This document shows positions 4,626-61,275 of a stretch of 64,000 nt of DNA, piece after piece. This stretch comes from Scilla litardierei. Its lineage: Eukaryota; Streptophyta; Magnoliopsida; Asparagales; Asparagaceae. The stretch spans positions 145,857,637 through 145,921,636 of the forward strand of contig CM061142.1 of the NCBI GenBank assembly GCA_030789695.1, read 5' to 3'. The notes below the pieces were generated by a model. The model made no database searches and was not told where the DNA came from. It saw nothing but the letters and a program-made list of their open reading frames with translations. Both the position numbers and the translations under genes were made by a program. Position 1 is the stretch's first letter; the number at the start of each line of letters is the position of its first letter.

Positions 4626-6478
4626 ATGCCGCCTCGCCTTAGGCCACGCACCCAGGAGCCCGCTTCCAAGCGGAAGAAGTCAGGTGATCCTGGCTCCTCT
4701 TCCGCTAGAGCGGACTCCCCACCACCTAGCCCACCACCTAGCCCACCACCACCTACACAGCAGCCTCCTGTCGATCCTATTCCACCACCTGCACAGCCTG
4801 CCCCTGCGTTCGATGCGATGTGGATTACGTTCCGAGATGACGCCCAGCGCGCCAGATTCGAGCGTATCTCCCATCGCTCGATCGTGCCCACTAGGTTTGT
4901 GCACCTCGCTGACTTAGAGCGCCTAGGGGTCCTAGAGGGGCTACTCCAGTTGTACGACAATGTAGGGTGGCGTGATTTCTTGTCGGTGTCGGCGGACACT
5001 TATATCCGCCCGACACTAGAGGTCCTTAGCTCTATCGAGCGAACCACTGGAGGATGCTTATTTCGCCTGATGGATCAGGAGTGCCAGGTCACTCTTGACA
5101 TGCTCCGAGCATTCTTCCAGTGGCCCGATGTCCCTGACCCAGACCGCGCTTACGCTCCCACGCACATCCCGCCCCCATCGTTCGACACCCATGCTTTCTG
5201 GACACGGATTACAGGATCACCCCTTGCCTTTGACCCTAGTAGGGCCAAGGCCTCTGCCGTCCTCCACCCGTGCCTCCGCATTGCACAGCGCCTTATGGCA
5301 ACCACTTTTCTTGTGTGGTACGAGCCCGGGACGTTGTCGACGGCAGAGCTCTACATGCTCTATAAGATGACACGTTCCAGGGTTTTTGATGGAGCTGACG
5401 TTCTGGTCCTCGCTGTAGAGATTAATATCGCCAGTTGGTACATCGACTGCATCATTATTTCTGTCGGCGCTCGTACGCCTATTTACTGCGGCGGTCTGAT
5501 TACCCTCTTGGACCTATTATGCCGAGTTGACCTCCCAGCTGACTTGCGGAGACCACCGGGTCCCACCTCACTTTCCATAGATGTTATGGCCCGGATGAGG
5601 ATGCTTCGTCCTCATGGTCAGCGTCACTGTGTTTGGCCATACGGTTCCCACAGCGCAGTTTACATGATTCTTCCCAGCCTTGCTCGTAGGCATATTGGAC
5701 CCGCGGGCAGGGACTGGGTTCCACCGATGGATATCCTCATCCCCGCCGCATACGTGCGAGAGCCTGAGGGTGCTCAGCAGGAGCCCCTCCTTCCACCACT
5801 TGACCCTGTGATCCCTCAGCCCACGCTTGTTTTGTCTGCACCTCCCGACGACTCTGTCCACACTTCTGCTAGTGTCGGGAGCACTTCAGTTGAGTCCACC
5901 CACACCACCACCACCACTGTGCCCATTTCGATAGATCCCATTTTTGCTGCCAGCCCGAGCATCCCCCCACGATAGTTGAGTGCGGCGAGCCTTCTTTTGC
6001 TTCCGCGGTAGAGAACCTGTCTTCACTGTTGTTCTCGACTCCTGGGGAGTCATTTTCTGCACCCTTCACGACCTCCCCAGTCGTCGACCTCACCGTCTCC
6101 ACCGCCGCTGTATTTTCCGAGAGTGTAGTGATGTCCGTCCCCACGTCTATGTCACTGACCTCTCTGCCCGCCTCGTCGTTAGCCACCACTACCGTTTCTG
6201 CTGCCGCTACTTCCTCTTCGACCATTCCCGCGTCTCAGCCTCATACAGAGGCTGGGCGACACTTAGCGAGCACAGCACCACCTTCCCACCCCACCGTATC
6301 ACCCATCCTTTACAGTAGCCGAGCGAGACAGCCCCACTCTTCGCCTGTTCGTCCTGCTCGACCCGCTGCTCCACCTCCCCCCGACACCTTAGTTCAGCAC
6401 CTACATATTCTTGTGGGGACGGTGAGTGGACTTAGAGCAGATCTTTGGGCTCTCTCTGCTACTGTTAGTACTGTATAG
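4626..6478 (+). pseudogene. Athila env-like ORF (ATHILA ORF-1 family), broken
   Basis: I chose the ATG at 4626 (MPPRLRPRTQEPASKRKKSG), a basic N-terminus usual for this family; an in-frame ATG further upstream would only read through the leader. The open frame runs to 5975 (449 residues): a basic and Pro-rich N-terminus, then a conserved globular region (FERISHRSIVPTRFV, LDMLRAFFQWP, SRVFDGADVLVLAVEINIAS) matching the protein found after pol in Athila elements. The remainder, Ser/Thr/Pro-rich and ending in a short helical segment (LVGTVSGLRADLWALSATVS), continues in another frame at 6029-6478 after a shift, and a TAG follows at 6476-6478. Envelope function for this family is only presumed; I see no convincing signal peptide. 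Confidence 0.75.
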
Positions 6479-17969: not shown

Positions 17970-18315
17970 TGTCACGACCCGCTTCCATAAAATGGAGGCG
18001 AGACGTGAAAAGGTCCGCACGAGAGTGGAGCTGTGAAGCCCCAAACCCGATAAGCGTCAATAAAACATAAGCAGGTCCCTGTAACCACAAACGGAGCAGC
18101 AATAATAATAAAAGGAGAGACAGAAATAAAATTCTCATATCTCATAAATTGTCCAACATGAAAATAAGTCCAACATCCAGAAAAGCCACCAGGCTAAAAG
18201 AAAGAGTCTAAAGGCCCAGAACAAGGCCAACAAAAGCAACAACGACACAAAGTATAGGTGCCACGCATCGACAACAAAACAACAGCCTAAACAAAAGGAA
18301 AACACAACGAAGACA

Positions 18316-18423
18316 CTAGGACTGGTCCCCAGTGTCCACGTACTCCCCGTCAAACACAAGCTCAGGCTCGGCGTCAGCAAACACCTCGTCCTCAACAAGG
18401 TACTCAGGCTCGGGATCTAACAT
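18316..18423 (-). CDS. LTR microORF, acidic 35-residue peptide (A, 3' LTR)
   Basis: ATG at 18423, TAG at 18316-18318. The peptide starts MLDPEPE and ends DTGDQS and is rich in Asp and Glu. It sits in the downstream half of the LTR, after the hairpin module and before the LTR end. The same 35-codon frame without any length change occurs at 23998, 27644, 40205, 47471, 51671, 56897 and 59463. In the last seven codons (DTGDQS plus stop) the differences between copies A, C, D, E and G are all at third positions. It could be an independent small peptide, a regulatory upstream ORF, or the last exon of a spliced product, since TTAG after the ATG resembles a splice acceptor. Not a known family to me. 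Confidence 0.55.
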   Translation of the reverse strand: MLDPEPEYLVEDEVFADAEPELVFDGEYVDTGDQS

Positions 18424-19092
18424 GTGTCACCCAAAAGAGTAAAGGGGCACATGTCAGCAAGTCTAAAAGACTTGGGCAAGGAAACTGAAAGTAAGGCAAC
18501 TAGCAACCTAGCAGTTATAGTATGCATGACATGGCAGTTATAACATGAGTGCACAATTAAGACATGGTGAACAGTAAGTACAAGAGAACAATTATCGGGA
18601 CAAGACAAGAGTAGCCAAGTTACTAACAATCTCAATCAATTCACTATTCATGTTTCACTGTTGTTTGTAGATGTTTACGCCCTTCAGCTGAATGGTACAA
18701 CATTCACGCTGATCGGCACTAAACACTACCCCACCCCAGAGTTTACGCCTTACAACTGCAGTTGCTGATCGGGCAGACTCCCAGTTGAATGGCCGCTTAA
18801 CCCTTACCCCATCCCGCACGTAAACAAGCCAGGGTCCCTGTACATGAGCCCAGCAAGTGAGCCAGGGTTGCCCCGCACGGGAGCTTGTTTTCCTAGTTCA
18901 CAATTCAATATCAAGCGTTGGGGTTAGCAACTCATTATGCTCGCTTCTGGTCACGAGCCAGGAAACACAAGTATTGTCGCGATGCTACGCAATCACGAGA
19001 TCACTTAAAGAATGTAATGACATGACAATTAATTCGCGTACCGTTAATGGAAAGTAAACATGACATGGTAATTGTGCAACATGATATATGTC

Positions 19093-19232
19093 GGAACTAG
19101 CTTCGTTGTCAAGCTAGTTCCTAAATTTGCGCCTAGGCGAGTATCATTTCGTCGCCTAGCCTCTTTTACGCCTACAACAAGCAAAATGGCCTAAAACATG
19201 GCCTAAACCCTAAGTGGCAAGTTTCACTTGCC
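19093..19232 (-). promoter_or_regulatory. Leader RNA hairpin module (A, 3' LTR)
   Basis: Three inverted repeats in transcript order. H1: GGCAAGT/ACTTGCC with loop GAA (19232-19216). H2: CTAGGCGA/TCGCCTAG with an 11-nt loop CGAAATGATAC (19159-19133). H3: GGAACTAGCTT/AAGCTAGTTCC with loop GACAACG (19121-19093). H2 and H3 stems differ from other LTR copies by paired changes, whereas the loops are nearly invariant. Confidence 0.7.
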
Positions 19233-19703
19233 TAGCACCGGGGATGACGATCACGAAGGTTCGTCTCGCGGAGGCTAATCTACGGGGAAATCGCTGTTAT
19301 GGGGAAACAATCATCAAAACAACATTCATTCATTAGGGTTTCATAAAAATACAAATAGGTTATGAAAACATCGAGAGATCGATTTCTTACCGAGAGGAGG
19401 CGGAAGAAACACTCCGGGGAACCTATGGACCAGATCTGAAAACGAATGGAGAAGTTTGGAAAACTAGGGTTTTGGGGGATTTTGGGGATTTGATGAGCTT
19501 TTGGGGAAGATGAGAGGTAGAATGAGTTGATGGATGGTTTGGATGATGAAGGATGAGCTTGGAATGAAGAATAAGGGTTGGAGGAAGATGGGGGCTCAAT
19601 GGGGGAGAAACTAGGGTTTTGGGTCGAGTGGAGGAAGAAGAAAATGTTTGGGATGGGTTTAAATAGGATGGGCTGGCGGCTGCCCAGAAATTAGGGTTTT
19701 AAC

Positions 19704-20240
19704 ACAGATTAGTCGGTCAAAGAGCAACCACTGACCGACTAGTTTGGCAACTAGTCGGTCGGTCGACCAACGCAGACCGACTAAGTGTAAACAGTAACTT
19801 CTGAACGAAAATAGGATTTGGATTTAGTCGGTCGATGAACAACTACTGACCGACTAGTTTAACATCTAGTCGGTCGGTGAACGTTCTTAGACCGACTAAG
19901 AGTGAACAGTAACTCGACTGTACAGAAGAACCAAGAATTAGTCGGTCTAAGTACAAAACTTAACCGACTAGTTTAACAACTAGTCGGTCGAAAGATGAAC
20001 TTAGACCGACTAAGAATGAACAGTATTGATACCAAAAATGAGTTGAAGAGTTAGTCGGTTAAAGAAGCATTGCTGACCGACTAGTTTGCAACCTAGTCGG
20101 TCAACCAACGTTCTTAGACCGACTAACGATAAAAAGTAACTCTTGAGAAATTTAGAAAGCAAACTAGTCGGTCCAAGAAGGATTGCCGACCGACTGGATC
20201 GTCATCTAGTCGGTCGGTGCCCCTTCTTACACCGGCTAAT
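19704..20240. repeat. Palindrome array, TAGTCGGTC type (A, 3' LTR)
   Basis: Five units of roughly 80 bp plus spacer. Each has four copies of TAGTCGGTC in alternating orientation (+ - + -), so each can fold into nested hairpins. Spacers carry AACAGTAAC. It lies upstream of the TATA-like box in the sense (minus) direction. Confidence 0.9.
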
Positions 20241-20508
20241 AAGCACCAAAAGTTCCGATACGGAGCGCGAAGCTCCGGGATCGATTCCTAAGACTCCTAG
20301 GCTTGATCTAATAGTAAGATACGACCGTTATGAAGCCCGTCACGAATGACATACTTCGAAATCGACGATCCTAAGGAAGAAACGAGAAAACACGACGAAA
20401 CGATCGAAAATGAAAGTTACGGAGACGAAAACCACACATGAGGAGAAAATCCACCAAAACATATATTATAATATAATAAATCCAGATACATGAAAACCAG
20501 TCGTTACA

Positions 20509-20523
20509 TCCTCCCCAACTTAA
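20509..20523 (-). other. Polypurine tract of element A
   Basis: On the minus strand TTAAGTTGGGGAGGA precedes the LTR start TGTAACGACTGG. Confidence 0.75.
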
Positions 20524-20554
20524 GAAAAATTCCGTCCTCGGAATTTCCAAACAC

Positions 20555-23508
20555 TCACGTGTCTGGAAACAAAAGTGGGAAACGCTCTCGCATGTTGATC
20601 TCCTTCTGAGTAAAAATATACTTCAAGCTTTTGTGATCGGTGAAAATCTTCACTTTCTCACTCAGCAGGAAGTGCCTCCAAATCTTAAGAGCAAACACAA
20701 CGGCAGCCAACTCCAAATCATGCGTCGGGTAATTCTTCTCATGAACCTTAAGCTGACGAGACGCATACACCACAACATGCCCATGCTGATGCAACACACA
20801 ACCGAGACCCTTGCCAGAAGCATCGCAAAAGATCTCAAACCCACCGCTGCGATCAGGCACAACAAGAATAGGGGCAGTCGTCAACCTCTCCTTCAGAACG
20901 CCAAAAGCATTCTCACAATCACCCGACCAAACAAAAACAACATCCTTCCGCGTCAACCTGGTCATCGGCTCAGCAATACGGGAGAAGTCCTTAATGAATC
21001 GCCGATAGTAACCAGCAAGTCCAAGGAAACTCCGAATCTCAGACGCAGAAGACGGAACATGCCACTCTCTGATGGCCCTAATCTTCTCGGGATCCACCGA
21101 AATACCATCTCCAGTCACCACATGCCCGAGAAAAGCAACTCTATCCAGCCAAAACTCGCACTTCGAAAACTTAGCATACAATCGATGCTTCCTCAAGATC
21201 TCCAATACCGTCCTCAAGTGCGACACATGCTCTTCCTCCGACTTCGAATAGATCAGAATGTCGTCAATAAAGATAACGACAAACTTATCCAAAAAGTCGT
21301 AGAAAATCAGGTTCATCAGATTCATGAAAACTGCGGGCGCGTTAGTTACGCCGAAAGGCATAACCACAAACTCATAGTGTCCATACTTCGTCCTGAACGC
21401 TGTCTTCGGAACATCATCCCTCTTCACCTTCAACTGATGGTAACCACTCCTAAAATCCAATTTAGAAAACACCCTCGAACCTCCAAGCTGATAAAAAATA
21501 TCATCGATGTGAGGTAACGGGTATTTATTCTTAATGGTCACCGCATTCAACTCCCGATAGTCCACGCACATGCGACACGAACCATCCTTCTTCTTCACCA
21601 GCAGCACCGGTGCTCCCCACGGAGACACACTAGGATTGATATAACCCTTCTGCAAAAGCTCATCCAACTGCTTCCGCAACTCTTCCAATTCTACAGGTGC
21701 CATACGATACGGCGCCTTCGAAATCGGCTGCGCACCTGGAACAAGATCGATAGAAAATTCTAAAGCTCGATCAGGTGGCAAACCAGACATCTCCTCGGGG
21801 AAGACGTCGCCAAAATCTCGCACCACAGATGGCCACTCTATCTCCATCTGCATAGCCACAACCTCCACCGGCCTGGCCCGAAATCTGACAGGACCAAGCG
21901 AACTGCTACCACGACTGGACTCAAATACTGGATGTCCGGGAATCTCAAACACCACCTTCTTCCTTCGACAGTCGATCGTAGCGTAGAAGCTCGCAAGCCA
22001 GTCCATCCCAAGAACTGCGTCATAGTTGATGATGTCGTGGACAATGAAATCAGCGAAAAGCTCATGTCCACAGACCACCAACGAGCAAGAATTGCAACCA
22101 CGATGCACCGAGACCACGCCATTCCCTGTAACGATATTCCAACTCTTGGGAAGAGGGGACGTCGACAAGGAATGCCTCTCCACGAAGCTCTGAGAAATAA
22201 TGCACATCGATGCACCAGAGTCAAAGAGGACTCGTGCAGGAAATGTGCACACCAAAACCACGCCTAACAAGCAATTAACAATCAAACCCTAGTCTAGCAA
22301 ACAACCATGTTCAAGCAAACAACACAATCTAACAATCAAAACCAGCTAGGAAAGTAATAGCTAGATTGAGGATTACCTGCGATAACCTCATCCACAGCCT
22401 CGCTCTCCACAGCGGTCATCAGAAAGGCCTGCCTCCTCGGCGGAACAGCCTGCTGGAAAGCATGCCTCTGTGGAACAAGAGCTGCTCCACGACCAGCAGG
22501 AACAGACGCTCGCGGCTGCAACGGCTGTGCTGCAACAGGTGCCCTCCACAGCGAACCCGCATGCCGACAATCCTTCGCGACATGGGAAGCATCACCACAA
22601 ACCAGACACTGGCCCAAAAACTTTTGACACTGATCCTTGATGTGGCCAGGCTTGCCGCAGAAATGGCAAGTCTTCAGAATAGGCCCTCCTGGCCTCTTAA
22701 ACTGAGCTGGCTGATTAGGCTTGAAACCAGGCCTAACAACCGCCCTGGCCTGCTCCATAGGCCTCTTCTCAGCACCAACAACAGACCCCCTCCTCTGACT
22801 CAGGTTCAGCTCCTGCCTCCTGGCAGCGACCAAAACCTTCTGATAAGAGTCCAAATCGGAGGAAGACACAAAACTCTGGAGCTCCAAAGCAAGTCCCTGC
22901 AGGAACCTCTGAGCCCTCTCATCAGCATCCTGCACCATCTTCGGTGCGAACCGACTCAGCCTAGTGAACTCTTGGTGGTACTGGTCCATCGTCAAGCTCC
23001 CTTGCTTCAGATCAATGAAGCGCTGCAGCATCTCCTTCTTCGCAGCCTTCGGAAAGAATTCCTCATCAAACCTGGATTTAAAGGTAGTCCAAGCTATCGG
23101 CTCCACCAACATCTTCTCTTCCGCATCCCACCAGTTCTGAGCATTATCCTTGAGTTGCCTCTTCGCCAAATCAACCCATCCAGCCGGGGTGATCTTGGCC
23201 ATCTTCAGATTGTCCTCGATGTTCCGAATCCACTCATCGGCAGCCAGAGGACCCTCAGACCCATCAAAATATGCGGGACCCAGCTCCCGAAATTGCATCG
23301 CTCCTGGCTCAGAGCGTGGGGCATCCGGAAGAGCCCGGGCAGCTCGAGCAAGTGGAGCATTCTGGACTTGCAGGAGCACGCCCTGCTGCACTTGCATCAT
23401 CTGGAGCATCATCCGCATCATCTCACCGTTGGTGGGTTCCCGCTTAGGCTCCTCATCATGAGGGAGCGCACCACTACCCCCACCACGGGTGAATCGTCTT
23501 CCTGCCAT
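20555..23508 (-). CDS. Gag-protease-RT polyprotein of element A, integrase deleted
   Basis: Joining 23508-22377 to 22263-20555 across the 113-nt intron gives one uninterrupted frame of 946 codons. Gag (about residues 1-377) has the gypsy capsid region ([36 protein letters not shown]) and two zinc knuckles, [14 protein letters not shown] and [14 protein letters not shown]. The protease has [15 protein letters not shown] (DSG). RT has [47 protein letters not shown] and [14 protein letters not shown]. RNase H starts at [17 protein letters not shown] and reaches [18 protein letters not shown], after which the frame jumps to the last residues of the polyprotein ([10 protein letters not shown]), removing the final RNase H Asp, integrase and chromodomain. 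The jump joins similar words (ATGCGACAGCG and ATGAGAGAGCG). It is the only chromoviral polyprotein here without a stop. Confidence 0.85.
22264..22376 (-). other. Putative intron 1 of element A (gag-protease)
   Basis: GTAATCCTC donor after GCAG and TTGTTAG acceptor before GCGTGG, 113 nt and T-rich. Removal restores the frame [21 protein letters not shown], as expected for a fused gag-pol of this lineage. The corresponding introns in C, D and E are 115, 113 and 112 nt. Confidence 0.8.
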
Positions 23509-23997: not shown

Positions 23998-24105
23998 CTA
24001 GGACTGGTCCCCAGTGTCCACGTACTCCCCGTCAAACACAAGCTCGGGCTTGGCGTCAGCAAACACCTCGTCCTCAACAAGGTACTCAGGCTCGGGATCT
24101 AACAT
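23998..24105 (-). CDS. LTR microORF (A/B shared LTR)
   Basis: ATG 24105, TAG 23998-24000; 35 residues, start MLDPEPE, end DTGDQS, near-identical to the copy at 18316. Confidence 0.5.
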   Translation of the reverse strand: MLDPEPEYLVEDEVFADAKPELVFDGEYVDTGDQS

Positions 24106-27643: not shown

Positions 27644-27751
27644 ATGTTAGACACCGAGCCAGAGACCGTAGCTGAGGATGAGGTGTTTGCTGATGCTGAA
27701 CCGGAGCCCACGTTTGACGAGGAGTTGGTGGACACCGGTGACCAGTCTTAG
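27644..27751 (+). CDS. LTR microORF (C, 5' LTR)
   Basis: ATG 27644, TAG 27749-27751; 35 residues, start MLDTEPE, end DTGDQS. Codes for the same acidic peptide family as the other seven LTR copies. Confidence 0.5.
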   Translation: MLDTEPETVAEDEVFADAEPEPTFDEELVDTGDQS

Positions 27752-31469: not shown

Positions 31470-33665
31470 TTAGACCTTTGGAAGCCAAGTCCAATTGGAC
31501 TTAGACTTCCCAACATAGTCATCATTAAGCACGACATTCACAAAATAGGAATTCATGTATGCTTGTTTTTCATGCATGTTTGTGTCCTTCGGGCTCCAAA
31601 TAGTGAAGATTTTGGGAGCCCTATTCCTATTGGGAACATGCATACGTTGTTGATTTCTATGTGATGCATGTCGTGGATAGGCATAAGACATATGATGAAA
31701 TGGTGCATGATGATAATTGTTCATATGAAAATGTGGATGTACATATGCATGTGGTGGAACACGTGCATGAGTGTGTCTCTCATGGTGTGCACGTGCTCGT
31801 GGATGTGGAGCATAAAAATCATCATACACGTGAACACGTGGAGTAGGAGGTGTGTTCCTACGTGGCATGGTATACATGAAAGCATGACCCTTCTTTGGAG
31901 GTCCACCCAAAGTGGGTTTCTTTCCAAATGGGGGTGTGTCCCTAGCGGAAGCACCATTGGTAGAAGAACTACCCATGAAGTGTTTACTTCCACTAGTAGA
32001 AGCATCAGAAGTTGGCCTAACAAAGGTGGCGGACGATTTGGATGAATCTCCCATCTTATACCCCAAGCCAATGTGATGATTGGCCGGAAGTAAGTCATTT
32101 AGGATATTATCCAAATGGCCCTTACCTTTATTGAATTCATTGATTCGGCCTAATGTGCACTCATATTTCTTGGTGAGAGAATGCATAGAAGCATCCAAGG
32201 TGGACACTTGCGATGTGAGTGCAAAAACACGTGACTTGAGATTCTTATTCTCAATACTCAAAGTTGAGTTTTGAGATGTCAAATCCGCTATCACATGTTC
32301 ATCCGAATCCTCGATATGAACATGCTCAAGTTTAGATTTGAGATTTTCAATCTCATTTCTCAACCCTTCAACAACGGTGTCGTTGTTGACAAAGATAGGC
32401 TTAGGCGAGGTTTGAAGACTAGTTAGCTCATTTTTAGTCTTAATAAATCTATTAGCTAATTTAGAAAACTTATACCAAAGTTGTTCATTAGCTAATCTAA
32501 GTTCGTCCATCGTTACCTCACCGCCTTCATCCTCGCTTTCCTCGCTTTCATCGGAGGAAGTCTCTTGATCATGTTCTTCTCTTCCCATGAAGCACATGTG
32601 TGCTTTCTCCGCCTTTTCATCATCTGACTCTCCACTTGAGGAGTCCTCGTCGGAGTCAGTGAATGTGCCGACAAGTTCTTTCTTGTACTTTCTCGACTTG
32701 TCGTATTTGGATGCCTTCCACTTCTCCTTATGTTTGTTGAGAGGACAATCCGGCTTGATGTGTCCTGGCTTGTTGCATTTATAACACACATGTGCGGATA
32801 CATTAGTCGAACTAATTTTAGATTTATTTCTAAAGTTACCTTTTCGGAAGAATTGGTCGAACTCATTTGCCATACGTGCAATGGATTCTATGTCCAACTC
32901 GTCTTCCGATTCTTCATCATCGGTAGATGGAGTGGCCTTGTATGCAATCGCCTTTTTCTTTGGCTCGTCTTGCTTCAAGTACGACTTCATCCTTTCTTGC
33001 ATCATGAGCTTACTGTCCTTGCGTACCTCATAAGACATCAAGGTACGCATTAGTTGTATGACAGTATACTTACTCATATCGTTACCTTCCTCGATGGCGA
33101 AGGTACGCTTTTCCCAATAAGAAGGAAGTCCATCGATGATCTTTGAGACTTTCTCCTTTTGGGTGTAGGTTTTTCCAAGAGCCTCCAATTTGTTGGTAAT
33201 GTCAACAAATCGAGCATAATACTCTTTCATCTTCTCACCATGTTGCATATGAAATAATTCGAAATCTTTATTTACAACAATAAGTTTGGAGTCTCTTACC
33301 CTACTCGTTCCTTCATGCAAGATGATGAGTGAGTTCCAGATTTGATATGCACTCTTACATGTGCATATCTTATTGAAGTCTTTAGGCTCCAAAGCGCATT
33401 GAAAGACATTCATTGCATTGGCATTGGTTACCTCCGCGGCGACCTCCGCAGTAATCCACTTCGCGAAATCTTCTTCGGCGGGCTTGACATACTCCTTCAT
33501 CGTGGCTCTCCCAAGTGAAGTACTCCGGAGGAACGTTTCCATCTGGCATTTCCAGTACCCGTAATTGGTACCATTGAAGGAGGAAGGCCTAGTTGAGGAT
33601 TGTCCTTCCATCACCGAAGAAGCACCTTCACGATTCTTGAAGACGCTGTAGTCGTTGTTTGTCAT
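31470..33665 (-). CDS. Copia gag protein, 731 residues
   Basis: An intact ORF starting MTNNDYSVFKNREGASS at 33665. The N-terminal part is a copia gag domain (FNGTNYGYWKCQMETFLRST, CKSAYQIWNSLIILHEGTS, KMKEYYARFVDITNKLEALG, KIIDGLPSYWEKRTFAIEEG). Then come an acidic linker (TPSTDDEESEDELDIESIAR), one zinc knuckle CYKCNKPGHIKPDC, a Ser/Glu-rich segment, and a coiled coil (VVEGLRNEIENLKSKLEHVH). The tail is unusually His-rich (HERHTHARVPPHAYVHPHFH) and ends near SNWTWLPKV. It would form the particle shell. That this long frame is open although pol is absent suggests recent activity or selection. Confidence 0.9.
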   Translation of the reverse strand: MTNNDYSVFKNREGASSVMEGQSSTRPSSFNGTNYGYWKCQMETFLRSTSLGRATMKEYVKPAEEDFAKWITAEVAAEVTNANAMNVFQCALEPKDFNKICTCKSAYQIWNSLIILHEGTSRVRDSKLIVVNKDFELFHMQHGEKMKEYYARFVDITNKLEALGKTYTQKEKVSKIIDGLPSYWEKRTFAIEEGNDMSKYTVIQLMRTLMSYEVRKDSKLMMQERMKSYLKQDEPKKKAIAYKATPSTDDEESEDELDIESIARMANEFDQFFRKGNFRNKSKISSTNVSAHVCYKCNKPGHIKPDCPLNKHKEKWKASKYDKSRKYKKELVGTFTDSDEDSSSGESDDEKAEKAHMCFMGREEHDQETSSDESEESEDEGGEVTMDELRLANEQLWYKFSKLANRFIKTKNELTSLQTSPKPIFVNNDTVVEGLRNEIENLKSKLEHVHIEDSDEHVIADLTSQNSTLSIENKNLKSRVFALTSQVSTLDASMHSLTKKYECTLGRINEFNKGKGHLDNILNDLLPANHHIGLGYKMGDSSKSSATFVRPTSDASTSGSKHFMGSSSTNGASARDTPPFGKKPTLGGPPKKGHAFMYTMPRRNTPPTPRVHVYDDFYAPHPRARAHHERHTHARVPPHAYVHPHFHMNNYHHAPFHHMSYAYPRHASHRNQQRMHVPNRNRAPKIFTIWSPKDTNMHEKQAYMNSYFVNVVLNDDYVGKSKSNWTWLPKV

Positions 33666-40204: not shown

Positions 40205-40312
40205 ATGTTAGATTCTGAGCCTGAGGTTGCTGCTGAGGACGTGGTGTTCGCTGACGCTGAGTCAGAGCCCGTGTTCATCGAGGAGATTGAGGACACGGGA
40301 GATCAGTCGTAG
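40205..40312 (+). CDS. LTR microORF (D, 5' LTR)
   Basis: ATG 40205, TAG 40310-40312; 35 residues, start MLDSEPEVAAED, end DTGDQS. Relative to the C and E copies most changes near the C-terminus are synonymous. Confidence 0.55.
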   Translation: MLDSEPEVAAEDVVFADAESEPVFIEEIEDTGDQS

Positions 40313-45472: not shown

Positions 45473-45827
45473 TGTAACGACTGGTTTTTCATGTATTTGG
45501 ATTATCTATATTATATATATGTTTTGGTGGATTTTCTCCTCGTGTGTGGTTTTCCATCTCCGTAGCTTTTCTATATTATATATATGTTTTGGTGGATTTT
45601 CTCCTCGTGTGTGGTTTTCCATCTCCGTAGCTTTCGTTTTCGTTCGTTTCGTTGTGATTTTCTAGCTCCTTCCTTAGATCGTTGAGTTTGGAGTAAGTCA
45701 TTCGTGACGAGCTTCATATCGCTCATATCTTAGAGTTAGTGTGAGCTTAGGAGCCATAGGAATCCTTCCCGGAGCTTCGCGCTCCATATCGTGACTTTGC
45801 GTGCTTATTAGTTGGTTCAAGAAGGGG

Positions 45828-46226
45828 AACCAACCGACTAGATCTCGATCTAGTCGGTCGGCAATCCTTCATGGACCGACTAGTGGGTTTTGTTATTATT
45901 CAGGAGTTATTGTTTACTCTTAGTCGGTCTAAGAACAACCACCGACCGACTAGATGTGAAACTAGTCGGTCAGAACTTGCTCTCAGACCGACTAGTTCCT
46001 TTGATTTATTTCACCTAAGTTAATGTTTATCGTTAGTCGGTCAATGAACACTCACCGACCGACTAGGTTGCAAACTAGTCGGTCGACGGGCCTTCACAGA
46101 CCGACTAATTCATTTCCCAGATTTATTCTTTCTTCCAATGATTGATCTTAGTCGGTCATAGTTGGTTGACCGACCGACTAGTTCTCGAACTAGTCGGTCA
46201 ACAACTCTTCTTTGACCGACTAATCG
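45828..46226. repeat. Palindrome array, TAGTCGGTC type (D, 3' LTR)
   Basis: Four units matching 38553-38960, some words better preserved than in the 5' LTR. Confidence 0.9.
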
Positions 46227-46726
46227 ACCTCGTAAACCTAGGGTTTGCCCAGCCGTCGCACGATTTTCTATTTAAACATCCGATCGTTTCTCTTTCTTTC
46301 TTTCACTACTCTTGGCTAATTTCTTTCCCCTTGGAGCTCTGATCTTCCCCAACACTCCCCAAGACATTCCTTCATCCTCGGAGCCCCCTCTCACCCTCAT
46401 TAGGGCCGGCCACCCTCCCCTTAGGCCGTCGGCCAACCCCAAAACTCCAAATCCCAATTTCTCCAGATTTCCTCGCAGATTCCAGATCTGAGCCATAGTT
46501 CTCCGGATCGTTCTTTCGTTGCCGTGCTTGCTCGACATCGTTCTTCCGCTACGATACGGTTTGTGAATCGATCCCTTGATATTCTCATAACCCCCATTGT
46601 GATTTTGTTAAACCCTAATAGCAATGGATTGGATATTGTTCTGATATTTTTTTTCCATGACAGCGATCCCATCTCCGTAGTTTAGCATTTTGTGACATGC
46701 CTCGTTGATCGTCATCCTTGGTGCCA

Positions 46727-46867
46727 GGCAAGTGAAACTTGCCAATTAGGGTTTTAGGTCATGCCTTAGGCCATTTGCTTGTTGTAGGCGTAAAAGAGTC
46801 TAGGCGACGAAATGATACTCGCCTAGGCGCAAATTTCAGGATCTAGCTTGACAACGAAGCTAGATCC
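46727..46867 (+). promoter_or_regulatory. Leader RNA hairpin module (D, 3' LTR)
   Basis: Same three hairpins as at 39460-39600 with all stems intact. Confidence 0.65.
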
Positions 46868-47470
46868 GACTACTTTTAATTATTTGCACTTCTTGTCATC
46901 CATGCATTTTATCTGCCATGTTTAAATTCAATTAATGGTACGCGAATTATCTGCACATGCCATGCTATCCATGTTGAATGTGCATTCGTAGCACACGCTC
47001 ATTACTTGTACTACTGGATTCCGGCTAGGCACCTGCTTTTAGCGGGCACAACCCTATGCCAAATACACTTCCTGGCTCGTGATCCAGAAGCGAGCATTAC
47101 GTGTTCGGGGGTAATGCCCTGGCTCGATACACGTGGATGGGTAGGGATAAATGGTCACTTGAGCTTAGGAGTTGGCCCGATCAGCCACTCTAGCCAACAG
47201 ACGAAATCTCTATGCACGACATGTTTACTTGACGTGTTTTACTTGACTTGTACTTGTCCGTGTTTATACTTGTAAAACTTGTCATCCATGCCATACTAGC
47301 TACTTGCTACTTGTTACTTGCACCTTACCTTGCTTGTTATTTCCATCATATACTTGCCATGTAATGCATCATTCTATAACTGCTAGGTTGTTAGTTTACA
47401 TTCCTTTCGGTTTCCTTGCCCAAGTCTTTTAGACTTGCTGACATGTGCCCTTTACTCTTTTGGGTGACAC

Positions 47471-47578
47471 ATGTTAGATCCTGAGCATGAGGTTGCTGCT
47501 GAGGACGTGGTGTTCGCTGACGCTGAGTCAGAGCCCGCGTTCATCGAGGAGATTGAGGACACGGGAGATCAGTCGTAG
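47471..47578 (+). CDS. LTR microORF (D, 3' LTR)
   Basis: ATG 47471, TAG 47576-47578; 35 residues, start MLDPEHEVAAED, end DTGDQS. Confidence 0.5.
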   Translation: MLDPEHEVAAEDVVFADAESEPAFIEEIEDTGDQS

Positions 47579-47919
47579 AGACTGGTTGTGTTGTTGTTTA
47601 GACTGCTTAGTTGTCGGTGTGTAGCACCAATACTTTGTTCGTGTTGTCTTTTGTTGGCCATGTTTGGGCCTAGACTCTTTCTTTTAGCCTGGTGGCTCTT
47701 TCTGCGATGTTGAATATTATTGTGGACAAATTCTGAGATTGGTTATCTCTTATCAGTCTCTTTTGTTATTATCATTATTATCTTTGTTCCGTTTGCATTT
47801 ACAGGGACCTGCATATATTCAGTTTGATGCTTATCGAGCGTGTAGCTTCACAGCTCCACTCCCGTGCGGACCTTCTTACGTCTCGCCTCTAGTTTTGGGA
47901 AGCGGGGTGTGACACCAGC

Positions 47920-49287: not shown

Positions 49288-50019
49288 TTCTGAGGACGAA
49301 ATCATTTCTAAGGTGGGGATGATGTACGGTCGCTTTCCGATCGTACTTTGTTCGTGCACGTGCTTTTGACCGTGCACGTATTTATTTTAGACTCTGTTTG
49401 TTTGTGAACACTTTAGTGTGATATGTCGTTGTGAACGTCTCTGAGAGTATTAAATTGTGGCACTAATTTGGAACGACATTTCTCGGGTCGTTCTCCCACG
49501 ATTTGATCTTATTCGAAGAGACGTTGCGATGTTCACTTTTGACGTGAGACGTTTCTATTTCTAGTTTCGTCACCCGATGTCGAAATTGAGATCCGTCTTC
49601 TTAGTTTCCTTTCTCTCATCGTCCCGATCATCCCAATATTTATTTCATAATTTTTGGATTTCATTTGACCTATTTTACATTTTTGGTCAAGCTTAAAATA
49701 TTTTTAGATACTAAGTTTTAAAGTATTTTCGACCCAATATAATTTCTATTAGATTATAACTCTTCAACACATTTTTGACCCAAATCCTAGCCCCTTGGCC
49801 ACACCCCTATTGCTTGAGATATAGTGAGGGTGAATATTTGGGTTTAAAATCAATTTAAATTCAAATATAACCCTAGACCAGGTCAAACCCACCTACACTA
49901 TATAAATACCCCCTAGGATAACCTATTTTCCTAAGAAATAAAACCCTAGCCGCCCCCACATCTCAAATTTCCACTTGCGACGTTCGTCGTAGCCGCAGCT
50001 TGCAGCCACCGCGCACGAC

Positions 50020-50425
50020 CGACGTTTGCCCTTGTTTTCCCTCAGTCTGACCGAGGCCCAACCCCGCATAGCCGCTCCGCTCCGCACCCAGTCGCCTGCC
50101 TCGTTGCAACCCCTGCTGCCCGCTACGACCGAGAGCCTCTCTCGGTCTGACCGAGAGAAAGCCCCGCACCCCGCTCTGCTGCAACCCGCAGCGCCCGACC
50201 GACGCCCCCCATCGGTCTGACCGGCCCGCTCCCCCGCATCGCACCGCACCACCGCTCCGTTGCAACCCCCGCCTCGCAACGCCCGACCGATAACTTCCCT
50301 CGCTGCAGCCCGCTGCGACCGAGAGCCCGCATCTCCGCAAGTGCATCGACCGACCGTGCCCTGTGTTCTCTCGGTCTGACCGAGAGAAATCCTCGCAGCA
50401 GCTCGGTCTGACCGAGCGACTTTCG
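50020..50425. repeat. Palindrome array, CTCGGTCTGACCGAG type (C, 3' LTR)
   Basis: At least four near-palindromes CTCGGTCTGACCGAG in a very GC-rich setting, with CGACCGA words between. Cys/Gly-rich ORFs on the minus strand across it are composition artefacts. Confidence 0.75.
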
Positions 50426-50941
50426 TCGCAATCCCGCATCCGTCGCACCGCTTGCAACCGTGGGCCCCCCCAAGTTCTCCAGAGGTGTTGTGGGTCCCCC
50501 ATTGGCCCCTAGCACTACTGTGGGTCCCACCTAGGCGTCTCCTCTTCGTGGATTTGCCAATTGCGACGTTGCGATACGTCGTAGCCCTTCGTCGCATGTC
50601 CTAGCGTTGGAATCTTGGTTCGTCGTTCTGGTTGCTTCCCGGACTTGACGAGCGAGGAACCTGATCTGGAATTTGGACTAGGAGCGCGTTCTTATATTCC
50701 AACCCCTGGCGTCGCTACCCGATGCCACTGTAGCTTTTGTGTCGTGTTGAGGTAACGTTCTGCACACTTAGGACCCCCAACCCATTGCCTGATAATCAAG
50801 ACTAAAATTGATGTTTTTAAATTGCTTTAAATTCACTAATCAAAATTAATAATATGGGACTATAGGCTGGTGGACTTGTGCACATAGGTTGTTTGTGACT
50901 TGTGGACTTTTGGACGGTGTTTTTCAGACGTCAGATTTGCA

Positions 50942-51078
50942 GGCAAATGAAACTAGCCGTCTTCTTGTTTAGGCCATGTTTTAGGCCGCTTTTTGTACCG
51001 TAGCGTAAAAGAGACTAGGCAGTAAAATGATAGCGGCCTAGACGCCCAATTGATCTAGCTCGACAACGAAGCTAGATC
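50942..51078 (+). promoter_or_regulatory. Leader RNA hairpin module (C, 3' LTR), partly decayed
   Basis: H1 is mutated (GGCAAAT/ACTAGCC), the H2 loop has one change, and H3 is GATCTAGCT/AGCTAGATC. Confidence 0.55.
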
Positions 51079-51670
51079 CGACCCCTTTTACTTGTTCATG
51101 TCATTCATGCATCCTTATCTGTCATGTTTAATTTCCTTATCTATACGCCTTGCTACTTGCCATGCCATGTCATCCATGCATTGAATGTTGCATTCGTAGC
51201 ACACGCTACATACTTGTACTTCCTTGTTCAGGCTAGGCACCTGCTTTTACGGGCACAACCCTATGCCAAATACACTTCCTGGCTCGTGATCCAGAAGCGA
51301 GCATTCCGTGTTCGGGGGTAAGGCCATGGCTCGATACACGTGGAGGGGTAGGGATAAGTAATCACTTGAGTGTAAGAGTTGGCCCGTACAGCCACTCTAG
51401 CCAAAAGGCATAATCCCTGTGCACGACGTGCTTACTAGACTTGTCCTTGTCCTTGTGATTGTTCTTGCAAACTTGATATCCATGTCATGATTTAAATGCC
51501 AGTTTTCATGCCATGCTCGTACTTTACTTCACTTGTTGCACTCACGCTATCTCTGCCATGTCATTGCATCACGCTAGAACTGCTAGGTTGCTTTACTTTT
51601 ACTTTCAGTTTCCTTGCACAAGTCTCTTGTAGACTTGCTAACATGTGCCCCTTGCTCTTTTGGGTGTCAC

Positions 51671-51778
51671 ATGTTAGACCCCGAGCCAGAGACCATAGCT
51701 GAGGACGAGGTGTTTGCTGACGCTGAGCCGGAGCCCACGTTTGACGAGGAGTTGGTGGACACCGGTGACCAGTCTTAA
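51671..51778 (+). CDS. LTR microORF (C, 3' LTR)
   Basis: ATG 51671, TAA 51776-51778; 35 residues, start MLDPEPETIAED, end DTGDQS. This is the only copy ending in TAA. Confidence 0.52.
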   Translation: MLDPEPETIAEDEVFADAEPEPTFDEELVDTGDQS

Positions 51779-52122
51779 AGACTGTTCTGAGTTTCTTTGC
51801 TTTAGGTTGCTGTTAGTTATCGGTGCGTAGCACCATTACTTTGTTTTCTGTACATTGTACTTTTGTTGGCCATGCTGGGCCCTTTTAGACTCTTTTCTTT
51901 TAGCCTGGTGGCTTTTCTGCGATGTTGGAACTTATTTTATGGATATTCTGAGATTGCCTTTTGTCTCATTTCCTTTATTATTATCTTTGTTTCGTATCGC
52001 ATTTGCAAGGACATGCCATTTAAAGTTTATTGACGCTTATCAGACTTGCAGCTTCATAGCTTCAAGTCTGAGCGGACCTACTCACGCTTCGCCTCCATAT
52101 TTTTGGGAAGCGGGGCGTGACA

Positions 52123-52347
52123 GAATCGGTCGGGTCCCAGCCCCGACCCCTAACGATTTTCCTATGATGCAAATCAATAGAGATAGCACGGAGATAGGTC
52201 TGCATTGACTCAAGTTGCGTGATCCCATTTCTCCATGACCCATGATATCACTCCACGGGTCCCACTTATCAGCCGACGAATGGTCCTTATCATCGAAGTC
52301 GTCCTTGTCGACCTACCTTACTGGATGGCGGAACCCATCCATTAACA
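52123..52347 (+). repeat. Second Tat LTR, second segment
   Basis: Resumes after element C with GAATC duplicated. The end is tentatively placed at TTAACA (52347), which would pair with the TGTTA start at 16494 and give an LTR of about 640 bp. No ORF. Confidence 0.5.
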
Positions 52348-56896: not shown

Positions 56897-57004
56897 ATGT
56901 TAGTTGCTGAGCCAGAGACAGTTGCGGAGGGTGACGAGTTCGTGGAGTTCGTGCCCGAACCTGTTGGTGACGTGGAGTACGAGGACACTGGTGATCAATC
57001 TTAG
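56897..57004 (+). CDS. LTR microORF (G), divergent
   Basis: ATG 56897, TAG 57002-57004. Exactly 35 residues despite strong divergence in the middle; start MLVAEPETVAEGDEF, end EDTGDQS. Its length conservation supports coding. Confidence 0.52.
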   Translation: MLVAEPETVAEGDEFVEFVPEPVGDVEYEDTGDQS

Positions 57005-57849
57005 AGACCTCCCGTACTTTTCTTTGTTAGCTGTGGTTGTCGGTGAGTATCATCGTTTTGTTAGACTCTGTTGGCCATGCTAGGCCTATTGCTTTTGACT
57101 CTTTTGTTGCCTGGTGCAACGGTACGTTTTCGTTGTACTTCGTTCGTGCACGTGCTTTTGGCCGTGCACGTGTTTATTTTAGAATATATTTGTTTGTGAA
57201 CACCTTTGTGTGATATGCCGTTACGAACGTCTCTGAGAGTATTAAATAGTGGCACTAATTAGGAACGACGTTTCTCGAGTCGTTTTCCCACAATTTAAAC
57301 TTACTCGATGAGACGTGACGATTCGCACTCTTGACGGGAGACGTTTCTATTTTTAGTTTCGTCGTCCGACGTCAAAACTGAGATCCGTCTTCTTAGTTAG
57401 CTCACATTCGTCGCCACGATCACCACGATATTTAATTTATAATTTTTGGAGTTTATTTGACCACTTTTATAATTTTTACAAGTTTTATAATATTTTTAAT
57501 AATTTATTTTTAAATTAATTTCGGCCAAATAAAATTTATTTGAGTTTTAAACGTTTTAAAGAATTTTTGAGCCAATTTCCAGCTCATTTGGACCAGGTCA
57601 AATTCTAGGATGGGTTGGAGAAGTTTAAATTCAAATTTTAAATCTTTTTGAACTTCTAATCCTATTAGATTTAGCCCTAGACCAAGTCAACCCATCTATA
57701 CTATATAAGCAACCCCTAGCAAGACCTATTTTCCAAAGAAATTAGCCCTAGCCTCTTCCAAACTCGAAATTGGACGTTGCGACGAATCGTCGCAACGTTG
57801 CGACGTTCAGCCACCGCACGACCGAAGGAAATCGCTCCGTTCCCCCGCT

Positions 57850-58190
57850 CAGACCGAAGCCCCCGCCCGCATCCATCGCCGTCCGCACGCTGCAGCAGCC
57901 GCCCACGCCCGTCCCCCGCTCCGACCGAGAGAGGCTCTCGGTCAGACCGAGGCCCCGCTCCGCACCGACCCCCCGCTTGTCGCCCGCTCGTCGCCCCGCT
58001 CCGCAGCGTGTCTGACCGATCGCCCCGCCCGCTGTGACCGAGCGCCCAAGCTTGCAACGTTGCAGCCCTGCCCCAAGCGCACGACCGACCCGTTACTAGT
58101 GTCTGACCGAAGAAAGCTCTCGCACCACAGTCGCCCGCAGCCGCTGCACGCCCCAAGCGCCGTTCCTAGTGTCTGACCGAGCCAAGTCCC
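57850..58190. repeat. Palindrome array, CGGTC type (E)
   Basis: Words such as CTCTCGGTCAGACCGAGG and GTCTGACCGA in GC-rich sequence, weaker than in element C. Confidence 0.6.
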
Positions 58191-58743
58191 CGCACCGAGG
58201 CTGTACGACCAGAGCCACTCGTCACAACCCCGCATCCGTCGTATCGCTTGCCTCCGTGGGCCCCCCAAGTTCTCCAGAGGTATTGTGGGTCCCCCAAAGG
58301 TCCCTAGGACTACTGTGGGCCCCACCTAGGTGCTTGCTCTTCAAGGATTCGTCGCGTACGACGTCGTCGCACGTCGTAGCCCGTCGTCGCACGTACGAGC
58401 TTTGGAATCTGGAATCGTCGCCCGGGTTGATTTCTCTGAAATTTCCAGCGAGGAATCTAATTGGAATCTGGACTTGGAGCGCGATCTTTTATTCCAACCC
58501 CCGGCGTCGCTACCCGACGCCGGTGTAGCTTTCGCGTCGTGTTGAGGTAACGTTTTGCACCCCTAGGACCCCAACCCAATTGCATGCTAATCAAGAATAA
58601 AAATCAGTATTTTTAAATTATTTTAAATGTTTTAGAAATTACTAATCAAGATTAATAAAACGGATGTAGGCCGGTGGACTTGTGCACGTAGGAATCGTGA
58701 CTTTGGACTCGTTGGACGGTGTTTTCTTGACGTGATAATTGCA

Positions 58744-58920
58744 GGCAAGTGAAACTTGCTGAATCTTGCTTAGGGCCATGTTTTTAGGCCACTTACTTGT
58801 TTTTAGCGTAAAAGAGACTAGTCAGTGAAATGATAGCTGGCTAGGCGCCTACTTGATCTAGTTTGACAACGAAACTAGATCCGTCACCTAAATGATCTAG
58901 CTTGACAACGAAGCTAGATT
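58744..58920 (+). promoter_or_regulatory. Leader RNA hairpin module (E), H3 duplicated
   Basis: H1 GGCAAGT/ACTTGC(T). H2 CTAGTCAG/CTGGCTAG with loop TGAAATGATAG (58818-58844). H3 occurs twice: GATCTAGTTT/AAACTAGATC (58855-58881) and GATCTAGCTT/AAGCTAGAT (58894-58920), both with loop GACAACG. The first has a C-to-T change paired with G-to-A. Confidence 0.7.
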
Positions 58921-59462
58921 CAACCCCTTAAAATTGTTGTTCATGCATGCTAAAATGTCACGTTTACTTCCCTTACCTGTACGCTTTACTTTAACTGCCA
59001 TGTCATGTCATCCATGCATCGAATATTGCATTCGTAGCACACGCTACATACTTGTACTTGCTTGTCCCGGGCTAGGTGCACCCCTATGCCATACTTGTTA
59101 AAGACACTTCCTGGCTCGTGATCCAGAAGCGAGCATTACCGTTCGGGGGTAAGGCCCTGGCTCGACACACGTGGAGGGGTAGGGTTGAGCGACCACTCGG
59201 CGTAAAAGTGTGCCCGTACAGCCTCCTTAGCTGTAAGGCGTGAACTCTGTGCACGAGGTGCTTACTTTTCTTGTCTTGTACTTGTCTTGTGAATGTCATA
59301 CCATGCTCGTACTTTTACTCGCTTTACTTTACCTGTTGCACTCATACTTTAACTGCCATGTCATTGCATCATGCTAGAACTGCTAGGTTGCTTTACTTTC
59401 AGTTTCACTTGCACAAGTCTTCCAGACTTGCTGACATGTGCCCCTTGCTCTTTGGGTGTCAC

Positions 59463-59570
59463 ATGTTAGACCCTGAGCCAGAGACAGTCGTTGAGGACGA
59501 GGTGTTTGCTGACGCTGAGACTGAGCCTACGTTCGTTGAGGAGTACGATGACACCGGAGATCAGTCTTAG
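59463..59570 (+). CDS. LTR microORF (E)
   Basis: ATG 59463, TAG 59568-59570; 35 residues, start MLDPEPETVVED, end DTGDQS. Confidence 0.55.
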   Translation: MLDPEPETVVEDEVFADAETEPTFVEEYDDTGDQS

Positions 59571-59910
59571 TGACTGTGGAGCTACTTTTGCTTTAGTTGC
59601 TGTTAGTTGCCGGTGCTTGCACCATTTCTTTGTTTTCGTACTTTGTACTTTTGTTGGCCATGCTGGGCCTCTTTTAGACTCTTTTATTTTAGCCTGGTGG
59701 CTTTTTCTACGATGTTGAGATTTATTATTATGGATATTCTGAGATGTTCTTTTTGTCTCTTCGTTATTATTATCTTTGTTTCGTTTCGCGTTGCAAGGAC
59801 CTGCAGTTTAAAAGTGATTGACGCTTATCGGACTTGCAGCCTTGTAGCTTCAAGTCTGAGCGGACCTTCTCACGCTTCGCCTCCACGTTTTTGGGAAGCG
59901 GGGCGTGACA

Positions 59911-60058
59911 GGTTTTGTTGGTGGCCCATGCAGGTCCCCTCTTGCGATTGCGAACTAACGGAACAACGATAATAAACGGATTATCCATTAAATAAATTGC
60001 AACATCCAAGTCATTAAGCTTCGAGTCTAATTTGTTTGCTCGTTTTCCATGTCATTAG
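59911..60058 (+). other. Element E leader and primer-binding region
   Basis: Starts GGTTTTGTTGG as in A, C and D. TGCAGGTCC here is a perfect complement of GGACCTGCA at about 59798-59806 inside the LTR end. Ends TGTCATTAG before the gag ATG. Confidence 0.5.
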
Positions 60059-61163
60059 ATGGCTGGACGACGACAGACCCGATCTGGCAGTGGGCCCCAT
60101 CGTGCTGAGGAGCCGGATAGAGAGCCCACCAATGCTGAGATCATGAGGATGATGCATCAGATGATGCAGGTGCAGCAGGGCATGCTCCAGACCACTCAGA
60201 GTGCTCCTCGCCACGAGCCAGGAGCGAAGCAGTTTCGGGAGCTGGGCCCAACGTACTTTGATGGATCTGAAGGACCGATGGCTGCCCAGGAGTGGATCAG
60301 GAACACCGAGGATAATCTGAAGATGTCGAAGGTCAACCCGGCTGGATGGGTTGATCTGGCAAAGAGGCAGCTGAAGGATAATGCCCGAAACTGGTGGGAT
60401 GCAGAGGAGGCGCTGTTGGTGAGCCCTATACCTTGGGCTACTTTCAAGTCTAGATTCGATGAGGAGTACTTTCCGAAGGCTGCCAGGAGGGAGATGGTGC
60501 AGCGCTTCATCGAGCTGAAGCAGGGGAGTCTGACGGTGGACCAGTACCACCAGGAGTTTACCAGATTGAGTCGCTTCGCACCGAAGATGGTAGAGGATGC
60601 TGAGGAGAAGGCTCAGAAGTTTCTACAGGGTCTATCCCTAGACTTGCAGAGTCTGGTGTCTACGTCGGACATGGAGTCATATCAGAAGTTGCTGGTAGCT
60701 GTCCGGAGACAGGAGAAGATTGCGAAGCTGAAGAGAGGACAGATTTCTGGAGCTGGGAAGAGGCCTATGGAGCAGTCTAGGCCTGGGGTCAAGCCTACCC
60801 AGCCAGTGCAGTTCAAGAGGCCAGGTGGGACTATTGTGAAGACTTGCCATTTCTGCGACAAGACTGGTCACATCAAGGAGCAGTGCAGGAAATTTCTGGG
60901 GCAGTGCCTAATCTGTGGAGATGCTACTCATGTAGCGAGGGATTGTCGGCATGCGAATCAGTTGAGGAGAGGACCTGATGGAGCACAGCTACAGAGGGGA
61001 CCAGTTACAGCCCAGCCCTTGCAGCAGAGAGCACCTGTACCTGCTGGACGTGGAGCGCCTCTTCCACCACAGAAGCATGCATTTCAGCAGGCTGTTCAGC
61101 CGAGGAGGCAGGCTTACTTGATGACTGCAGTGGAGACCGATGCTGTGGACGAGGTTATCGTAG
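60059..61163 (+). CDS. Element E gag, intact exon
   Basis: ATG at 60059 (MAGRRQTRSGSG). Capsid motifs: [60 protein letters not shown] and [21 protein letters not shown] basic linker is followed by two zinc knuckles CHFCDKTGHIKEQC and CLICGDATHVARDC, then a Gln/Pro/Arg-rich tail. No stop or shift. The exon ends TAG/G at the intron 1 donor, so the polyprotein would continue into protease after splicing; unspliced RNA would give a gag ending a few codons into the intron, which could be how gag is made in excess. Confidence 0.88.
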
Positions 61164-61275
61164 GTAACCCTCTGTCTAGTTGTTCCTTTCTTAGTTAGTT
61201 TTGATTGTTAGATTATGTTGTTGCTTGCATATGGATGTTTGTTAGAATAGGTTTGATTGTTAGTCTGTATGTTAG
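61164..61275 (+). other. Putative intron 1 of element E
   Basis: 112 nt, GTAACCCTC ... TATGTTAG. Splicing gives [15 protein letters not shown] in frame. Confidence 0.8.

Follow-up and report, generated by a model that had tools for sequence, protein, structure and literature searches.

A conserved 35-codon reading frame inside the long terminal repeats of an abundant Ty3/gypsy retrotransposon of Scilla litardierei

Additional open reading frames (ORFs) are already known in chromoviruses, and the accessible portion of the published work includes large 5' ones in Tekay elements, the one described coding for about 400 amino acids (PMC11728184). According to the excerpt available, the main classification survey set a floor of 250 codons for extra ORFs (PMC6317226), so that a frame of only 35 codons would go uncounted. 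In the available text of a review on additional ORFs, terms relating to an LTR position, to upstream ORFs (uORFs) or to Tekay had no match (PMC7264820), and the excerpts of the literature on ORFs and uORFs in LTR elements covered here yielded no conserved microORF inside an LTR, which does not prove its absence. Two further groups of systems are relevant for comparison. In the accessible part of the work on conserved-peptide uORFs, those that stall ribosomes fit a pattern of conservation close to the stop codon (PMC7106846). As far as the available sections describe it, uORF-rich leaders are handled by ribosome shunt in plant pararetroviruses (PMC5902531) and by a pyrimidine-tract (YX-AUG) landing site in front of the 13th AUG in Triticum mosaic virus (PMC9042117).

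The window analyzed here is a stretch of 64 kb from the genome of Scilla litardierei, for which an initial annotation had reported a microORF of exactly 35 codons in eight LTRs. Direct reading of the window confirmed eight frames of 35 codons plus stop, all of them ending in DTGDQS. They are located in the 5' and 3' LTRs of element A (27644..27751 and 51671..51778), the 5' and 3' LTRs of element D/E (40205..40312 and 47471..47578), a truncated LTR with the divergent copy G (56897..57004) and the 5' LTR of a gag-bearing element, copy F (59463..59570), all on the plus strand. The frames of element C at 23998..24105 (5' LTR) and 18316..18423 (3' LTR) are also present as described, but lie on the minus strand. 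Although all eight LTR copies exist, a self-comparison of the window reduces them to five independent insertions, namely the LTR pairs 27644/51671, 40205/47471 and 18316/23998 plus the copies at 56897 and 59463, with elements nested in one another. Likewise, the restriction of differences to third codon positions, originally stated for the last seven codons, applies to the stop and the six codons before it, whereas the codon preceding these varies at its second position.

ORFs beside the microORF copies match Retrotrans_gag, RVP_2, RVT_1 and RT_RNaseH, corresponding to gag, protease, reverse transcriptase and RNase H of Ty3/gypsy elements. One piece in the window contains SH3_Tf2-1 above the cut-off together with an integrase core below its cut-off, and the same piece has a Chromo match at the expected place (E 0.0016), which at 18.8 bits stays below the cut-off of 25.1. 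Judged by this domain content, the carrier is an abundant Ty3/gypsy LTR retrotransposon, probably of the chromovirus type, and its long LTRs and the element layout make it a candidate member of the Tekay/Del clade. In the F element, gag (Retrotrans_gag) extends from 60059 to 61198 on the plus strand with an acceptor-like CATTAG|ATGG in front, and the distance from microORF to gag is about 0.5-0.6 kb in F and other 5' LTRs. An acceptor-like TCA(C/T)TAG precedes the gag AUG in most copies read (window positions 60041-60062 and 5' LTR loci); the three gag-less copies read retain the CTAG and have GTG in place of the gag ATG. Directly after the 5' LTR (window positions 59911-59935 and 5' LTR loci) stands GGTTTTGTTGGTGGCCCATGC, which does not resemble the usual initiator-Met primer binding site. 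The LTR types also differ in their repeats: C- and D/E-type LTRs harbor many GACCGACTAG/CTAGTCGGTC units upstream of a TATA-like box, while A/F-type LTRs have CTCGGTCTGACCGAG units in exon 1 instead (LTRs at 17970-20581 on the minus strand, 45477-47915, 49327-52123 and 57118-59910). Further retroelement pieces, at 4476-5975 and at 31470-33665 (minus strand), code for a protein like Athila ORF1 and for a gag of the copia type.

On the genome scale, a degenerate DTGDQS pattern gave 20,015 + 19,933 = 39,948 matches in 3.68 Gb (reversed control 1 + 1), and an ORF-independent anchor, an exact 19-mer situated just upstream of the microORF and outside of it, gave 24,894 + 25,000 = 49,894 matches (control 0). 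From 100 anchor matches listed, we sampled the first 30 and picked 40 of the other 70, all of them within the first 7.2 Mb of one contig. Among these 70 copies, 49 have 35 codons, two have 34 codons in frame (L047, L082) and 19 are broken, altered or devoid of a start codon, so that the fixed length noted initially holds within the window but not genome-wide; ATGTTAG is absent in two of the 70. A wider set of 94 anchor copies, in which the additional 24 include LTR partners of sampled copies, comprises 66 with 35 codons, 27 others and one with a lost start. Loss of the stop codon was seen in the single copies L054 and L120. For some of the analyses we used a set of 87 copies that mixes anchor-sampled copies with copies fetched via the DTGDQS motif; it omits nine of the 40 loci L106-L145 (extraction pattern failed), seven of the 70 sampled by anchor (sequence on one side not long enough), L051 (overwritten by a chance antisense match) and one spurious window row.

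The assumption of purifying selection on an LTR-encoded peptide was supported. Using a tree of 65 intact copies from the anchor sample, all distinct, on which changes were mapped and compared with a CpG-context neutral spectrum from 229 flank changes, we obtained a dN/dS (omega) of 0.53 for codons 2-35 (p 5.6e-7), with 0.29 for codons 2-7, 0.67 for codons 8-29 and 0.27 for codons 30-35 (p 6e-4). As only intact copies entered the omega trees, the absence of nonsense changes and start losses from them is uninformative. The 87-copy set gave 0.50 (codons 2-35), 0.36 (2-7), 0.70 (8-29) and 0.12 (30-35), the last value being biased because part of this set was fetched by DTGDQS, which favors an unchanged tail. 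Between the lineages in the window, uncorrected pN/pS ranges from 0.16 to 0.45. In addition, the frame of the ORF and its complement showed the strongest third-position bias (0.53 versus a mean of 0.334, sd 0.060) among 2372 windows of 105 nt, covering both strands and all frames from -1050 to about +470 of the ORF in 18 sequences. Based on these substitution patterns, the microORF is evolving as a coding sequence, most strictly at both ends. In the anchor-sampled copies the tail is no stricter than codons 2-7, which weakens the case for a stop-proximal arrest peptide. In 15 LTR pairs, the two members differ by 12.5 S : 18.5 N changes, which is no contrast to the differences between lineages (Fisher p 0.70), and N/S was alike on internal and terminal branches in both the 87-copy and the anchor-only tree. 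We regard these two tests as weak rather than refuting, since the pairs provide only 31 changes and many terminal branches stand alone in their lineage.

The start of the microORF is embedded in a predicted RNA structure. Hairpin SL2 (59431..59469, plus strand; CTGACATGTGCCC / GGGTG..CACATGTTAG) pairs CTGACATGTG with CACATGTTAG around a pyrimidine-rich loop, and its 3' arm, which holds the microORF AUG and the TTAG, extends from the start codon through codon 2 to the first base of codon 3. That ATGTTAG is invariant is thus explained by the start codon forming the 3' arm of SL2. Hairpin SL1 (59414..59430, plus strand) has the form CAAGTCT-loop-AGACTTG with a loop length that differs between lineages. 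The start-codon hairpins had folding z values of -4.5 to -7.7 in six of six sequences folded. In 37 sequences chosen from 44, a sample found in part with the anchor that itself contains the SL2 5' arm, the SL1/SL2 stems are 98.8% paired and nearly constant: one-sided changes occur in four pairs and double changes in none. In consequence, the support for SL1 and SL2 comes from complementarity, from loop-length variation with constant stems and from folding energy. Between intron 1 and the microORF lies a structured leader block (58741..58887, plus strand) with two covarying hairpins (CTAG.../...CTAG and GATCTAG.../...CTAGATC), whose helices are 95.8% paired in 37 distinct sequences chosen from 49. 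Here, 11 pairs show double changes, amounting to 79 cells versus 19.6 ± 4.1 after shuffling, and sliding the partner by 1-3 columns gave at most 11 double-changed cells. The loop motifs of these two hairpins are largely conserved across LTR families, and the hairpins are possibly a packaging or dimerization signal. Homologues in the window are found at 54270, 56204, 50939, 39457, 46724 and, on the minus strand, 19088. A search of the window against Rfam returned nothing at gathering scores and one sub-threshold miRNA match in the leader.

The layout of the LTR further suggests a long, spliced leader. In the F LTR, a TATA-box-like TATATAAG (57702..57709, plus strand) is followed by about 0.8 kb without ATG, and a donor-like site follows the exon-1 stretch. 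The TATA pattern was matched in 12 of 24 LTR copies, with an exon 1 free of ATG in nine of the 12; a fixed stretch of 270 nt was used for the four copies without a recognized donor. The four long exon-1 stretches (722-836 nt) contain 1, 0, 0 and 2 ATGs versus 7.3, 4.2, 4.5 and 6.7 expected. Leader intron 1 is predicted by position in the F LTR (58547..58744, plus strand; GAG|GTAACG ... TTGCAG|GCAAG). In the C-type LTR it spans 97 nt (19294..19390, minus strand) with the donor CTCG|GTAAG and the acceptor AACAG|CGAT, and the exact exon-1 junction without this intron was found at 52 genomic places of C-type LTRs (L158-L162; control 0). Of these places, 34 form 17 same-strand pairs at a distance of 5.8-7.3 kb, which is the LTR-to-LTR distance. 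Four places (two pairs) were read and lack exactly GTAAG...AACAG in comparison to the unspliced L009 and L025, and in one intron-less element read the microORF is intact downstream of the junction. These copies are apparently traces of reverse-transcribed spliced leader RNA, from which we infer transcription of the leader, and by this arrangement the microORF is placed in the 5' leader (R-U5) upstream of the main ORF.

Ribosomes that scan in the ordinary way would seldom arrive at the microORF, as 9-17 AUGs, mostly belonging to short uORFs, lie between the first leader hairpin and the microORF in nine copies; its own start context is weak (CAC AUG U). The loop of SL2 is a pyrimidine tract of 12-15 nt. 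Of 119 rows compared, which include two chance antisense matches, 115 have a spacer of 9 nt between this tract and the AUG. A pyrimidine tract at a short and nearly constant distance from an AUG is the arrangement of a YX-AUG landing site, which makes this start codon a candidate for one. We also considered a preceding uORF that ends in the TAG of ATGTTAG and rejected it. The length and frame of that uORF vary with the loop, so that the stem accounts better for the AUG found 26-29 nt upstream.

The initial annotation had placed selection on the peptide independent of gag-pol, which our data do not support: in the elements tested, broken frames were found only without gag. Each of the 13 anchor-sampled 5' LTRs with gag downstream keeps the microORF intact (L030, L033, L035, L037, L043, L056, L058, L121 by way of L102, and the elements of L148, L149, L153, L154 and L157). 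In a family without gag the microORF is intact in three of ten copies (L040, L053, L065) and broken or deprived of its end in seven (L042, L048, L061, L062, L076, L106, L112). The one-sided hypergeometric probability of 4.9e-4 for this link was calculated by hand from copies that are non-independent, and since the broken copies are related, there were fewer independent losses than counted ones. L025, with gag and an intact ORF, was left out of the 13 because it came from the DTGDQS list; the comparison also omits L022 and L023 (members of an LTR pair, in-frame TAG), L054 (lost stop) and L046 (nonsense). L155 (broken ORF) and L156 (34 codons) were left unplaced from probes of 350 bases, and the broken copy L073 sits in an element interrupted by another. 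Elements without gag and pol share a common non-coding interior and have LTRs related to those of the window (L040, L099-L101, L103, L146, L147, L150-L152); this family is apparently mobilized in trans. ATGTTAG is unchanged in all 22 broken copies compared, against 0.20 differences per site over the remainder of the frame; the extraction of these copies demanded a near-ATGTTAG, yet 16 of 16 in the unconditioned 70-copy sample also carry the motif. The persistence of hairpin and ATGTTAG where ORF and gag are lost means that this block must also serve something besides the peptide.

As a tentative explanation, we propose that the microORF is a conserved leader-peptide ORF of the autonomous elements, probably acting on the translation of Gag-Pol. 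A uORF that acts on gag translation is possible, and it is our first choice among the readings. The microORF would be translated from the leader RNA as the first conserved coding ORF after a structured, uORF-rich stretch, with ribosomes possibly entering at or near it by internal landing, shunting or reinitiation. The peptide would then act in cis on the ribosome and tune the downstream Gag-Pol translation; a nascent-peptide effect of the kind exerted by plant conserved-peptide uORFs (PMC7106846) is proposed in view of the conserved stop-proximal tail. The hairpin may have an additional cis role in replication, such as packaging, which is suggested by its persistence in gag-less elements.

Nearly as likely as a cis-acting leader peptide is an acidic microprotein that acts in trans, for instance as a partner of Gag, integrase or a host factor, and that would be encoded by a separate small leader gene. 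The constraint at both ends is at the protein level, the acidic composition is retained across lineages, and the 34-codon variants remain in frame, all of which suits such a protein as well as the cis model. The same holds for the loss of the ORF from the gag-less, presumably trans-mobilized family, as elements without gag could dispense with the ORF when autonomous ones supply the product. On the other hand, the weakly constrained middle (omega 0.67) suits a folded protein less, and no relative was found in the viral contigs or in the protein collection searched. We consider it improbable that no peptide is selected at all and that hairpins, a G-N-N periodicity and CpG mutation produce the pattern at the nucleotide level. 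It is true that the first codons overlap SL2, that first codon positions are the least variable (675, 1121 and 2039 differences at positions 1-3), that pN/pS within LTR pairs is 0.41 and not 1, and that terminal and internal branches hardly differ in N/S. However, the neutral model with CpG context still leaves a low omega in anchor-sampled copies at codons 30-35, far from the hairpins, where as many as four bases occur at four-fold sites and the amino acids are nonetheless mostly kept, and the frames are broken in the gag-less family.

The two further readings have very little to recommend them in comparison. One of them, offered in the initial annotation for a terminal exon, makes the microORF an exon, terminal or internal, of a longer protein encoded by spliced RNA, the TTAG that follows the ATG serving as the 3' splice site. 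This idea draws on the nearly invariant TTAG with a CTGAC about 37 nt upstream and a T-rich tract nearby, on coding-like evolution that starts at the microORF, and on the existence of a leader intron. Nevertheless, two exact-pattern searches, for the A/F type and for the C type, found no junction of exon 1 to the microORF genome-wide, compared with the 52 places that have lost intron 1. Such an absence is weak evidence alone, because an RNA of this kind might not be copied; but a single hairpin has CTGAC in one arm and TTAG in the other, splicing in the F type would bring a TGA into frame at once, and exon 1 has no ATG in most of the copies with a TATA match. Splicing into the microORF is thus very improbable, and the claim was not supported. 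A pattern for the junction of exon 1 to gag yielded, among the matches listed, unspliced variants in all cases but one. Equally improbable is that the frame represents a relic or a short equivalent of the large additional 5' ORF of other Tekay elements. Such ORFs are described for sunflower and grass elements in the portion of the study available (PMC11728184), but the sunflower protein of about 400 amino acids is characterized there as proline-rich with a nuclear signal, as opposed to 35 acidic codons inside the LTR.

Returning to the leader-peptide ORF, a bolder version, which we hold to be unlikely, is a dual-use switch in which the last hairpin of a replication or packaging signal doubles as the start site of the leader peptide. 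If true, melting the hairpin for translation and keeping it for packaging would be mutually exclusive, one segment of the LTR would decide whether the RNA is translated or copied, and the gag-less parasites would have retained the RNA half and lost the peptide half. How one RNA is shared between translation and replication in LTR elements is an open question. Here, a peptide ORF, a hairpin-locked start, a spliced leader and a natural control without gag come together in one place and in tens of thousands of copies, and roles as cis-acting peptide, trans-acting protein or RNA signal are thus separable by simple reporters. Besides, small conserved genes within LTRs can escape surveys that count extra ORFs only above a size cut-off.

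In comparison to known systems, the microORF resembles the 5' aORF/eORF of Tekay/Del chromoviruses in being an extra frame upstream of gag that is conserved in many members; in contrast to the large ORF described in the available part of that work (PMC11728184), it sits within the LTR itself and occurs in the 5' as well as the 3' copy. With plant CPuORFs it shares a short frame in the 5' leader and amino-acid conservation that includes the part adjacent to the stop. These uORFs reside on host mRNAs and are defined by conservation among orthologous mRNAs of different species, whereas the microORF is part of a mobile element, has its start codon in a hairpin, is conserved at both ends and is known from related element families within one plant genome. 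As in the leaders of pararetroviruses and Triticum mosaic virus, as far as the accessible sections portray them, a long and structured region with many short uORFs precedes the first real ORF, and a pyrimidine tract close to the AUG is shared with the latter (PMC9042117). A shunt leader of the pararetrovirus type has a 5'-proximal short uORF that stops just ahead of one large stable stem, with the landing site behind it; in the Scilla leader we see a series of small hairpins with no take-off uORF identified, and we do not claim relatedness. Finally, RNA splicing and a parasitic relative unable to make Gag are also found with the plant LTR element BARE1 of barley; according to the part of the report available, the BARE1 intron immediately follows gag, and the spliced RNA could not be amplified as DNA copies (PMC3735527). 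In the Scilla elements, by contrast, the intron is located in the leader, and intron-less copies are integrated in the genome.
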